In this document: positions 52,737-57,607 of the stretch, piece after piece
Numbering within the stretch: position 1 is the stretch's first letter
Layout: each line of letters begins with the position of its first letter
Assembly (NCBI RefSeq): GCF_000023325.1
Contig: NC_012785.1
Location: 1,178,001 to 1,242,000, forward strand
Direction of reading: 5' to 3'
Source of the DNA: Kosmotoga olearia TBF 19.5.1
Lineage (GTDB): Bacteria; Thermotogota; Thermotogae; Petrotogales; Kosmotogaceae
Length of the DNA: 64,000 nt
Made by a program: the position numbers and the translations under genes
The notes under the pieces: generated by a model
The model's database searches: none
Told to the model about the DNA's origin: nothing
The model's input: only the letters and a program-made list of their open reading frames with translations

Positions 52737-52765
52737 TTGCTTTTCACGAATCATTATGTTATAAT
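52737..52765 (+). promoter_or_regulatory. promoter of the leader-peptide / ABC exporter transcript
   Basis: TTGCTT (52737-52742) and TATAAT (52760-52765) are 17 bases apart. Transcription would start near 52772, about 28 bases before the leader start codon. Confidence 0.75.
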
Positions 52766-52790
52766 CTGTTTCGCAATTATTCCGAAAGGA

Positions 52791-52956
52791 GGTGTGGCAA
52801 TGTTAAGGAGCTTTGGAACTTCAAGAATTTTCAGAATCCAGTCATCTGGAGCAGTCATGCTTTGCCACGCCTTGGTACGATTACGGGGGTATCAATTTGT
52901 ATAGTATAGAGTAACCCGTTGTACGAGGGCCGTGGCGAGAGTCACGGCCCTTTTTT
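52791..52956 (+). promoter_or_regulatory. candidate translation-coupled attenuator
   Basis: Segment 1 GGTGTGGCAA (52791-52800, overlapping the leader ribosome site and start) pairs over 10 bases with segment 2 TTGCCACGCC (52862-52871). Segment 2 can instead pair through GCCACG with CGTGGC of segment 3 (52931-52936). Segment 3 GGGCCGTG (52927-52934) otherwise pairs with segment 4 CACGGCCC (52943-52950), followed by six T residues. So 1:2 plus 3:4 terminates, and 2:3 would prevent termination. Confidence 0.55.
52800..52904 (+). CDS. leader peptide upstream of ABC exporter (34 codons)
   Basis: ATG 52800 follows GAAAGGAGGTG, one of the strongest ribosome sites in the window, and encodes MLRSFGTSRIFRIQSSGAVM followed by LCHALVRLRGYQFV. 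The peptide has no membrane or secretion signal and matches no family I know. Its coding sequence spans pairing segments 1 and 2 of the attenuator, and a terminator begins 22 bases after the stop. That layout fits a regulatory leader whose translation or stalling controls read-through into the exporter genes. A stand-alone small protein is the alternative. Confidence 0.55.
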   Translation: MLRSFGTSRIFRIQSSGAVMLCHALVRLRGYQFV

Positions 52957-52958
52957 AT
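52927..52958 (+). terminator. terminator of the leader transcript
   Basis: GGGCCGTG (52927-52934) pairs with CACGGCCC (52943-52950), 8-base loop, then TTTTTTATTT. A very short second frame, MRTRGRES, begins at 52988 behind GGAGGGG, before the ATPase gene. Confidence 0.85.
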
Positions 52959-53084
52959 TTGAGTTCAAATCATGAGGAGGGGAAAATATGAGAACGAGAG
53001 GCAGAGAATCTTGAAAGTGTAGCTATTTTGAAGGACGGCTATTTGAGACAGAAAAGACAGAGTTGAAGAAAAAGGGGTGATACT

Positions 53085-53879
53085 ATGAACTACGCTCTTA
53101 ATGCGGAAAATGTTAGAAAGTACTTCAAGAAAAATAAAAAAATTGTGCATGCGTTAAAGGGAATAGATTTGAAAATAAGAGAAGGAGAAGTCTATGGTCT
53201 TTTAGGACCGAATGGCTCTGGAAAATCGACTTTTATCAGGATAGCGTCTACACTTTTAATTCCCGATTCCGGACGCATAGAGATATTTGGGTATGATGTT
53301 GTGAAAGAAGCTTCAAAAGTCCAGAAGCTAATAAACAGGGTCTCAGTTGAAGCAAGTTTTTTCAGAAAGCTCTCCGCACTCGAGAACTTGCTCTTTGCGG
53401 CTGGAATTCACGGTATGTCTAAAAAAGAAGCTTTGATGAAAATAAACGATATTGTGGAGAGAGTCGGGCTCGACAAAAAGAGATTAAACGATCCTCTGGA
53501 AAACTTTTCCAGAGGTATGCAGCAGAAAGTCGCAATAGCGAGAGCTTTCATGACCGAACCCAGAATGATGCTGCTTGATGAACCCACCACCGGACTTGAT
53601 CCCAGAGCTAAACGTGAGGTTCAGAGGCTGATAGAAGACATGAAGCACAAAATGAAAGCAACAATACTTTTGACCACCCATGATATGGAAGAAGCCGAAA
53701 AACTCTGTGATTATGTAGCGATAATCCACAGAGGGAGAATAATCGTCAAAGGTCGTCCGGAAGAACTCAAGGCGAAAATTTCCGACAAAGTTCATAATCC
53801 AACTTTTGAAGATGTCTTCATGGAATTCACTGGTGTAAGATTCGACGAAGCGGAATATGAGGAGGTTGAAACCCTATGA
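53085..53879 (+). CDS. ABC-2 exporter ATP-binding protein (drug-exporter type)
   Basis: The 264-residue ATPase has Walker A (GPNGSGKSTFIR), signature (NFSRGMQQKVAIARA), Walker B (MMLLDEPTTGLDP) and switch His (TTHDMEEAE). The arrangement and short C-terminus match DrrA/CcmA-like exporters of antibiotics or other hydrophobic compounds. Its stop overlaps the permease start (ATGA). It is downstream of the leader-peptide attenuator and upstream of an ABC-F gene, a context seen for antibiotic-inducible loci. Confidence 0.9.
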   Translation: MNYALNAENVRKYFKKNKKIVHALKGIDLKIREGEVYGLLGPNGSGKSTFIRIASTLLIPDSGRIEIFGYDVVKEASKVQKLINRVSVEASFFRKLSALENLLFAAGIHGMSKKEALMKINDIVERVGLDKKRLNDPLENFSRGMQQKVAIARAFMTEPRMMLLDEPTTGLDPRAKREVQRLIEDMKHKMKATILLTTHDMEEAEKLCDYVAIIHRGRIIVKGRPEELKAKISDKVHNPTFEDVFMEFTGVRFDEAEYEEVETL

Positions 53880-54706
53880 GCGTTCAAGCAATAGTTCAAG
53901 AAATGAGGGCATCATGGGCTTTTATTGTTAGAAATTTCAATCTGTCAAAACGTTACTGGAAATGGGAACTGGTGTTTCTCGTTTATACAATTGCAAATTC
54001 GGTGACCATGGGGTTCATCGGAAAAGGTGTCGAGTCCTTCTCTGATGGCTCTTTCGATACCAACTATCTGATACTCTATATGTTGCTCGGATCGATTCTC
54101 TGGGGTTATCTTTCAGTTCTTTTCGCAATAGTTGCCGAAACAGTTGCCTGGGAACGCTGGGAAGAAACGATAGAATACACCTTCATGGCTCCGGTAAAAA
54201 GAGCAACGCACCTTTTAAGCGTTTGTGGATACGCGATACTTTACGGAATATTGAGGGCTGGTTTAATACTGCTCGTGGTTTCAATCTTTTTCGATCTCAA
54301 CCTGGCTAATGCGAACCTGTTGTCCGCAGCGGGAATCCTAGCTGTAGCTAGTTTCTCTTTCATAGGTCTTGGGATGGTTGCGGCAGTACTTCCGCTAATA
54401 TCCCCTGAAAAGGGCGTACAGGTTGTGCATATATTTCAGGCATTACTACTGATGTTCTCAGGGGTTTACTATGAAATAACCGTTCTCCCTGACTGGATGC
54501 AGAAAGTGGCGAAACTATCACCGGCAACTTATGCGTTAGCCGGTATGAGAAGTGCCATATTGCATGGTAAGAGTTTCTCTGAGTTATGGAGTCAGGTGTG
54601 GCCGTTGATATTTCTAGGGGCGGTTTTGCTCCCCTTTGGGATCTATTTCTTCAGCGTGATGGAGTTCTGGGCGAAGAAGAAAGGCGTACTAAAAAGGAGC
54701 GGGTGA
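53876..54706 (+). CDS. ABC-2 exporter permease
   Basis: The 276-residue protein has six membrane segments and the ABC-2 features ETVAWERWEETIEYTFMAPV and the late PDWMQKVAKLSPATYALAGM. It overlaps the ATPase gene by four bases and forms the exporter with it. It resembles the 40661 permease distantly. The terminator at 54697-54724 overlaps its last codons. Confidence 0.87.
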   Translation: MSVQAIVQEMRASWAFIVRNFNLSKRYWKWELVFLVYTIANSVTMGFIGKGVESFSDGSFDTNYLILYMLLGSILWGYLSVLFAIVAETVAWERWEETIEYTFMAPVKRATHLLSVCGYAILYGILRAGLILLVVSIFFDLNLANANLLSAAGILAVASFSFIGLGMVAAVLPLISPEKGVQVVHIFQALLLMFSGVYYEITVLPDWMQKVAKLSPATYALAGMRSAILHGKSFSELWSQVWPLIFLGAVLLPFGIYFFSVMEFWAKKKGVLKRSG

Positions 54707-54724
54707 GCTTTCCCCGCTCTTTTC
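54697..54724 (+). terminator. terminator after the exporter permease
   Basis: GAGCGGG (54697-54703) pairs with CCCGCTC (54713-54719), followed by TTTTCT. Read-through to the ABC-F gene, or a separate promoter around 54735-54750 (AAAATATAATGG), would be needed for downstream expression. Confidence 0.7.
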
Positions 54725-54769: not shown

Positions 54770-56584
54770 ATGATACTATCTCTCAGCAAAGTCGGACACG
54801 ATTATGGTGAAGGATTCCTTTTTCAAAATTTTTCCGCTTCCGTTGCCAAAAGAGACAAGATTGTCTTGATTGGTCCGAATGGAAGCGGAAAGTCAACGCT
54901 CTTAAAGATTATAAAAGGGCAATTACAACCAACAGAGGGAGAGGTCTTCCTCGCTTCTGGAACCAGAATAGGCTTTCAGAAGCAACAGCGGATTGAACAT
55001 CCGGATATGGCTCTTTTCGATTACTACATGCTGGAAAAGGAAAACCTTGACGAAGAGACGGAAGAGTATTACAGCTACGAAAGAAGGGTAAGAAGCATTC
55101 TCAGCGGTCTTGGCTTTAAAGAAGACGCCTGGAACAGAAACCTCGGGAGTTTCAGTGGTGGAGAGTTAACAAGGATAGCGTTAGGAAAACTCTTTCTGGT
55201 AGATTACGATCTTTTGCTGCTCGATGAGCCCACAAACCATCTGGACCTCGACTCCGTTGAATGGCTCCTTTCTTTCCTGAAAAGTTACCGTGGAGCTATC
55301 ATTCTTGTCTCGCATGATAGATACCTGATTCGAAATGTAGGAAACCGTTTCTGGGAGATAAACGGTGGAAAAGTATGGGATTTTAGCGGCAACTTCGATA
55401 AATATATAGTCGAAAGGGAAAGAATCTTAAAAACAGGCATCAGACGCCGCGAGAATTTAGAACGCGAAATAAAGCGTCTTGAAGCTGTTGCGAAACGTTA
55501 CAGGTCTTGGGGAAAGGAGAAACTGATCAAACAGGCCATCAGCAAAGAAAAACAGGCTGAAAGGCTCCGACAGGAATTGGAAGAAATCCAGCTTCCAGAA
55601 GAAACGGTAAGAGAACCGGAGATAAGAATTCCCGAACCGAGCAGAACGGGTCTGGTTGTTCTGGAAGTTAAAGACCTTTCCTTCTCTTATGATGAAAAAA
55701 AGATCTTTGACAAAGCCTCTTTAACGGTTAACAGGGGCAACAAGATAGCCCTGCTTGGCCCAAATGGAAGCGGTAAGAGCACCTTTTTGAAGATAATAAC
55801 GAAAAGGATTCGAAATTTTTCCGGAACCGTTTCATGGGGCTACAACGTTAAATGGGGCTATCTTTCCCAGATGACCGAAGATCTAGATCCGGAGAAAGAG
55901 GTTATTGAAGAATGCTGGCAATTAGTGTCGGATTGGCCAGACTACCAGATCAGAAGGTATCTCGGAAGGTTTAATTTTGTTGGGGAAGATGTTTTCAAGA
56001 AAGTTGGTCAGCTCAGTGGTGGTGAGAGAACAAAACTCGCTCTCGCCAAGCTGATACTCGAAAGACCAAATGTTCTAATAATGGATGAACCGACGAATAA
56101 CCTAGATATCTGGTCCATCCAGAGTCTGGAAAAAGTGCTGAAAGAATACAAAGGAGCTTTGCTTCTTGTATCACACGATAGGGAATTCACAAATAACGTG
56201 TGTCAAAGTTTCTACTCTATAAAGAACTTTAAGATCCGTCCAGTTTCATCGATCGAGGAATACCTTTCCTGGGGAAAAATCTCTTTGCCTGAAAACAATA
56301 AAGTCCAGAGATCCAACATGGACTATACAGAGAAAAAGCGTATAAAAAATAAGCTAAAATCCCTTCTCAGGGATATTGAAGATCTGAACAGCAAAGAAGA
56401 GGAGCTTGAAAAGCAAATAGATGAACTCAACGACGAAATAAAAATATATAGCACAGATTTTAACAAACTCCAGCAACTTCACGAAGAGCTTTCTAAAAAA
56501 GAAGAAGATCTTCTCGAACTATTGCAAAAGCGAGAAGATCTGGAAGAAAAAATTAGAGAACTAAAAGAATTGGTTGAAAGTTAA
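54770..56584 (+). CDS. ABC-F family ATPase (ribosome-associated type)
   Basis: The 604-residue protein has two ABC domains and no membrane part: Walker A1 (GPNGSGKSTLLK), signature 1 (LGSFSGGELTRIALG), Walker B1 (LLLLDEPTNHLDL); then Walker A2 (GPNGSGKSTFLK), signature 2 (GQLSGGERTKLALAK) and Walker B2 (NVLIMDEPTNNLDI). The interdomain linker (about residues 225-290) is charged and helical, as in ribosome-binding ABC-F proteins, and the last 80 residues form a coiled coil as in Uup. ABC-F proteins act on the ribosomal E site; some give antibiotic resistance. Proximity to the exporter and leader attenuator suggests such a role, but a housekeeping Uup/EttA function is equally possible. Confidence 0.92.
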   Translation: MILSLSKVGHDYGEGFLFQNFSASVAKRDKIVLIGPNGSGKSTLLKIIKGQLQPTEGEVFLASGTRIGFQKQQRIEHPDMALFDYYMLEKENLDEETEEYYSYERRVRSILSGLGFKEDAWNRNLGSFSGGELTRIALGKLFLVDYDLLLLDEPTNHLDLDSVEWLLSFLKSYRGAIILVSHDRYLIRNVGNRFWEINGGKVWDFSGNFDKYIVERERILKTGIRRRENLEREIKRLEAVAKRYRSWGKEKLIKQAISKEKQAERLRQELEEIQLPEETVREPEIRIPEPSRTGLVVLEVKDLSFSYDEKKIFDKASLTVNRGNKIALLGPNGSGKSTFLKIITKRIRNFSGTVSWGYNVKWGYLSQMTEDLDPEKEVIEECWQLVSDWPDYQIRRYLGRFNFVGEDVFKKVGQLSGGERTKLALAKLILERPNVLIMDEPTNNLDIWSIQSLEKVLKEYKGALLLVSHDREFTNNVCQSFYSIKNFKIRPVSSIEEYLSWGKISLPENNKVQRSNMDYTEKKRIKNKLKSLLRDIEDLNSKEEELEKQIDELNDEIKIYSTDFNKLQQLHEELSKKEEDLLELLQKREDLEEKIRELKELVES

Positions 56585-57127: not shown

Positions 57128-57157
57128 AAAAAGCCTCCCACATGGGAGGCTTTTTGT
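57128..57157. terminator. bidirectional terminator of the pilin gene
   Basis: AAAAAGCCTCCC (57128-57139) pairs with GGGAGGCTTTTT (57144-57155), loop ACAT. It follows the minus-strand pilin gene. Confidence 0.9.
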
Positions 57158-57169
57158 TATTTGAATTCA

Positions 57170-57607
57170 TCAATAGACTACAAAGCTGAATTCGTAGAAT
57201 ACTGTTCCGCCAGCTGTGCTGCTAAGACCACCACTCAGGAAAGTGTAACCACTGGTACCTGGATCGGAAGATACCGCATCCTTCAGGATTCCCTGAACAG
57301 TGTTGAAGTCGACATCTTCTGTTGTGAATACTACGACTGTGTAATCTCCGGCGGACTCTGTATAAGCAACACCGTACTTGGTTGTGTCGATGTCTCTTCC
57401 AAGATCGCTGATGGATGATGGAGCTACGCCATCAACATATGCCTTGTTCTCAAAGGAGCTAGCAAGTGTTTTCAGGTTCTGTGCAACCTTTGTAGCCTGC
57501 GCCTTCTTGATAGCGTTCAAAGCAACCGGTGTGATTGTAGCGATTAACGCAGCGATAACCGCCAAAACGATCAAAAGTTCAACGAGTGAAAATCCTCTTT
57601 TTCTCAT
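57170..57607 (-). CDS. type IV pilin-like / pseudopilin
   Basis: The 145-residue protein has a class III signal: RKRGFSLVELLIVLAVIAAL, with cleavage before Phe and Glu at position +5 of the mature protein, followed by the hydrophobic helix typical of PilA/PulG. The C-terminal domain is small and rich in Ser, Thr and Gly. It would be processed by a prepilin peptidase and assembled in a pilus or type II secretion pseudopilus. GGAGGGG precedes ATG 57607. No other pilus genes are nearby. Confidence 0.92.
   Translation of the reverse strand: MRKRGFSLVELLIVLAVIAALIATITPVALNAIKKAQATKVAQNLKTLASSFENKAYVDGVAPSSISDLGRDIDTTKYGVAYTESAGDYTVVVFTTEDVDFNTVQGILKDAVSSDPGTSGYTFLSGGLSSTAGGTVFYEFSFVVY

Follow-up and report, generated by a model that had tools for sequence, protein, structure and literature searches.

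In the 64,000-nucleotide stretch of the Kosmotoga olearia TBF 19.5.1 genome analysed here (the window), a short ORF and an intrinsic terminator precede abcA and abcB, the two genes of an ABC exporter; the question is whether the position of a ribosome on the ORF decides if transcription continues into the exporter. We consider it probable that the leader is a ribosome-position-sensing transcription attenuator of abcAB.

Leader anatomy and exclusive pairings

A promoter, a 34-codon leader frame and a terminator had been proposed at this locus and all were found in place (Table 1), the promoter combining a weak -35 with an extended -10 element. Because of the weak -35 it was not listed by a simple promoter scan; comparison with the leaders of relatives showed the TATAAT to be nearly invariant.

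Table 1. Features of the exporter locus (positions in the window).
Feature	Position	Strand	Remarks
Promoter	52737..52765	+	Read directly; weak -35 TTGCTT (52737-52742), extended -10 TGtTATAAT (TATAAT at 52760-52765)
Segment 1	52786..52800	+	Leader Shine-Dalgarno (SD) region, SD AAAGGAGG; pairs with segment 2 (anti-antiterminator)
Leader ORF	52800..52904	+	34 codons, MLRSFGTSRIFRIQSSGAVMLCHALVRLRGYQFV; ATG at 52800, stop TAG 52902-52904
Segment 2	52861..52878	+	Partner is segment 1 or segment 3
Segment 3	52921..52939	+	Terminator 5' side; partner is segment 2 (antiterminator) or segment 4
Intrinsic terminator	52925..52956	+	12-bp stem (52925-52952) and T run
abcA	53085..53879	+	DrrA-like ABC exporter ATPase; TIGR01188 260 bits (below cut-off 312); PF00005
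abcB	53876..54706	+	ABC-2 type permease; PF01061 and PF12698 above cut-off; DrrB models match weakly
Intrinsic terminator after abcB	54693..54724 (approximate ends)	+	
abcF	54770..56584	+	Ribosomal-protection-like ABC-F; NF000355 above cut-off; terminator upstream

As in attenuators of the bmrCD/vmlR kind, a leader ORF with a ribosome-binding site lies ahead of the terminator, and terminator, antiterminator and anti-antiterminator are mutually exclusive. Checked against the sequence, GGTGTGGCAA (52791-52800) in segment 1 pairs with TTGCCACGCC (52862-52871) in segment 2, GCCACG (52864-52869) pairs with CGTGGC (52931-52936) as the antiterminator core, and GGGCCGTG (52927-52934) pairs with CACGGCCC (52943-52950) inside the terminator stem. 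The original prediction had placed the three pairings at these positions, with a shorter antiterminator; the helix between segments 2 and 3 extends to 17 pairs (52861-52878 with 52921-52939) and encloses another hairpin, located around the stop codon of the leader. The leader region folds with a z of -3.8, and the complementarity of segment 2 to both partners was greater than in all of 200 dinucleotide shuffles. No Rfam family matched at the gathering score; weak Rfam sRNA matches, driven by the terminator, were discarded.

Spread and covariation of the double pairing

The host genome (a single contig of 2,302,126 bases) was compared with its family in a set of 17 genomes, 14 of which carry an orthologous exporter, two of them as broken copies. 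Orthologous exporters were also present in 11 genomes from other families of the class, reached by searching with the exporter protein, as DNA similarity search gave no match beyond the family. The order CehA-like gene, leader, abcA and abcB is retained across much of the family where contigs allow, and exporter leaders with the same layout extend to five further families of the Thermotogae and to a single MAG carrying the label Caldiserica. Altogether 22 exporter leaders were read, 13 from the family, eight from families f3, f5, f6, f8 and f10, and one (L098) from the Caldiserica-labelled MAG, with the leader ORF kept at 23-35 codons in all of them. No leader was found at two orthologous exporters of family f3 (L068 and L070, genera g29 and g30); the L070 exporter lies directly behind another gene. 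A related permease with 50% identity (L101) is on a contig binned as Woesearchaeota, by either mis-binning or transfer.

Each of the 22 leaders has, within its ORF, a stretch of 16 bases complementary both to the leader SD region and to the terminator 5' side, the weaker of the two pairing energies ranging from -14.7 to -23.4 kcal/mol. When the intervening sequence was shuffled, none of 200 dinucleotide shuffles for each of 21 leaders matched this double complementarity, nor did any of 300 mononucleotide shuffles for L098. The leader sequences have greatly diverged all the same. In partner swaps, the strongest or nearly strongest pairing of segment 2 was with its own partners, and partners taken from other families mostly gave a poor fit. 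A further 244.6 kb scan by rule, to which leader positions were not given, covered 120 terminators and 29 leader candidates; the exporter leaders together with three rows from MFS leaders (two loci, one of them present twice) scored -14.7 or below and everything else -10.8 or above; L065 was missed, its terminator falling outside the scan's filter.

Covariation was assessed for the helix between segments 2 and 3 in family f1, on ten distinct sequences. Both partners vary in five of 13 pairs, a number reached in none of 500 shuffles; the register of the helix and a bulge of 1-2 nt were chosen manually, a source of bias. In the alignment 91.5% of cells pair, and the signal collapses when the helix is slid by one column. 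On the sequences, the clearest case of coordinated segment change is G004, in which segments 1, 2 and 3 are altered together (GCGA, GCCACGTCGC and GCGACCGTGGC, respectively) and the frame over segment 2 is shifted; here, therefore, the pairing and not the peptide has been kept.

Homologous loci retain both the frame and the alternative pairing, in agreement with the attenuator originally proposed, and the leader ORF with its exclusive pairings has been retained, class-wide, upstream of orthologous exporters. The pairing logic persists while the sequence turns over, making these leaders searchable by logic and not by similarity.

A leader ORF and a terminator are also found upstream of MFS transporter genes in genus g4 (L045, L051 and L073-L079), with the conserved peptide IQA.RR.IL.G...S.GECYLV. 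Most of these loci fail the double-pairing test and they were not counted as the same kind; they are perhaps a second kind of attenuator.

Ribosome position and the leader peptide

Segment 2 starts 43-67 nt past the start codon, and 13-28 nt separate the end of the stop codon from the terminator stem; therefore, a ribosome at the stop leaves the terminator unobstructed and masks or adjoins segment 2, and one at the start covers segment 1. From the observed anatomy, exclusive pairings, conservation and covariation we infer readthrough, an inducer and a cargo, as follows. With no ribosome, the leader SD would pair with segment 2 as the anti-antiterminator, the terminator would form and the exporter would be off. 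During normal leader translation, the ribosome at the stop codon would cover or clear segment 2, and the terminator would form again. Arrest on the start codon or within the next few codons would place the ribosome over the SD, leaving segment 2 free to pair with the terminator 5' arm, and with the antiterminator formed RNA polymerase would read through into abcAB.

That ribosome position decides which structure forms had been part of the original prediction, and for the window's leader it is consistent with folding with a modelled ribosome (an equilibrium model with an assumed footprint of 33 nt, allowing pairing across the bound ribosome): at 65 C, the antiterminator is predicted to beat the terminator only with the P-site at codons 1-5. 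Seven other leaders behave in the same way in the model (G002, G006, G005, L065, L066, L067 and L069), in three further ones the terminator is merely weakened under a stalled ribosome, and in the remaining ten of the 21 modelled (G004, L063, L064, L071, L072 and five of g4) the terminator is still preferred at equilibrium, so that these leaders would need a kinetic route to antitermination. In ribosome-free RNA, before synthesis of segment 4, pairing of segment 2 with segment 3 is predicted to be favoured over pairing with segment 1 at equilibrium, so the off state would depend on segments 1 and 2 pairing first.

The signal read is likely the ribosome position and not a specific arrest peptide, because there is almost no constraint on the first codons of the leader. 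For g4, a Mesotoga-like genus, pN/pS is 1.07 in codons 2-10, 0.39 in codons 11-20, 0.47 over segment 2 and 1.14 in codons 28-35; little of the peptide thus appears to be protein-selected, except for the middle, where RNA pairing also acts. Conservation of the peptide, proposed earlier as a check, gave no clear sign of an arrest peptide.

These values bear directly on a leader of the erm/mef type, in which the nascent peptide itself would arrest the ribosome by a macrolide +X+ motif near its N-terminus. Such a motif occurs within residues 2-9 of 11 of the 21 leaders, against 3.1 expected by shuffling, a count that is inflated by shared ancestry, and the leader of the Caldiserica-labelled MAG contains MRWR. 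Arg and Lys are also enriched in residues 2-8 (28% against 14.5%), a weak hint at macrolide contexts in some lineages. However, the motif is found in only about five of 13 lineage groups and is absent near the start of the window's leader, and with codons 2-10 close to neutral in g4 we regard a peptide-specific arrest as improbable. As a common sensor, the +X+ motif was dropped for its patchy occurrence and for the freely evolving codons 2-10.

A somewhat smaller chance is given to an attenuator that answers a general slowdown of translation, by cold or amino-acid shortage, and not a drug. This reading is consistent with the lack of a clear arrest motif near the start of the window's peptide, with the free first codons in g4, with the Arg/Lys enrichment and with the very wide temperature range over which Kosmotoga grows (PMC5674127). 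Against it, the modelled switch requires arrest at codons 1-5, and the downstream gene is a drug-type exporter, neither a biosynthetic nor a cold gene. Likewise, no run of codons for a single amino acid is present in the peptides or common to the leaders, as an amino-acid attenuator of the trp kind would have; the leader of L069 has a single Arg, close to its end. If the leader were just a small gene or small RNA, unregulated and ending in a terminator of its own ahead of the exporter, it would show an identical promoter, RBS, ORF and terminator, but this reading is very unlikely given the double complementarity and covariation across exporter leaders, the conserved placement directly ahead of orthologous exporters and the mostly unconserved peptide.

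For the ribosome-position attenuator, the natural inducer would most likely be a compound that binds the ribosome, stops it during initiation or early in elongation and is then pumped out by the exporter. By analogy with known systems, a drug response of the leader is plausible, and induction is predicted for drugs that stop the ribosome on the start codon or immediately beyond it.

Downstream genes and known attenuators

The ABC-F gene had been included in the proposed circuit, and this part of the proposal was not supported. In the window's genome, as in G002, G006 and G004, abcB has an intrinsic terminator of its own behind it; 65 of 103 genomes of the class have an ABC-F gene, which lies elsewhere than the exporter in Mesotoga-like genomes and other families and adjoins it in part of the Kosmotoga family only. 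An operon of abcF with abcAB was therefore rejected, and abcF is probably, judging from gene arrangement, a separate transcription unit. Further on, at 57170-57607 of the minus strand, the window encodes a Type IV pilin-like protein (MRKRGFSLVELLIVLAVIAAL...), with a strong terminator that can act in both directions (57128-57155) coming after it.

In g4 (L039, L040, L041, L043, L047, L048 and L050), g3 (L037/L038), g5 (L044) and g2 (L046), the interval from the terminator to abcA contains two to five short ORFs that have good RBSs, and two short ORFs lie at this place in L098 as well. Two of those in g4 are under purifying selection (pN/pS 0.22 and 0.34); for one g4 ORF that was searched, no well-supported second copy was found in the family. 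The counterparts in the window (52957-53084) look degenerate, consisting of MRTRGRES* with a good RBS and of a startless open frame ending in EEKGVIL*, which resembles the ORF ends of G002 and G006. It is doubtful, and less likely than either slowdown sensing or peptide-specific arrest, that the attenuator governs, beyond the pump alone, a translation-stress-induced unit for small-protein export, in which the two to five short, mostly basic proteins of Kosmotogaceae relatives would be co-induced as cargo or partners.

In the open-licence PMC literature no Thermotogota example of such an attenuator was found, which is limited evidence of absence; if true, the present reading would place ribosome-mediated efflux control in the Thermotogota. 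By analogy, the Thermotogae leader mechanism would match the three-structure logic of bmrCD and vmlR of Bacillus subtilis. The bmrB-bmrCD attenuator responds to ribosome-targeting drugs and controls a multidrug ABC exporter encoded by two genes, and shares with our leaders a leader ORF, an intrinsic terminator, an antiterminator and a predicted anti-antiterminator; there, however, the terminator is located within the leader gene and the exporter belongs to another ABC type, whereas here the terminator is past the leader stop and the SD of the leader itself serves as segment 1 (PMC4191407). In vmlR, the uORF lies within the anti-antiterminator and induction is by drugs that halt ribosomes during initiation and expose the antiterminator, comparable to the early arrest predicted here; its uORF has three codons (MIN) and its target is an ABC-F gene, in contrast to 23-35 codons, an exporter target and a segment 2 inside the ORF (PMC9226507). 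In mefA/msrD, a drug-stalled ribosome on the leader ORF likewise lets transcription pass an intrinsic terminator into an efflux/ABC-F operon, the drug part being assumed by analogy for our leaders; specific arrest peptides (MTASMRLR and MYLIFM) act there, whereas no clearly conserved arrest peptide was seen here (PMC10314930). Finally, the toiL uORF of E. coli senses several drug classes, start-codon stalling included, but it targets translation of the next gene and Rho instead of an intrinsic terminator (PMC12121999).
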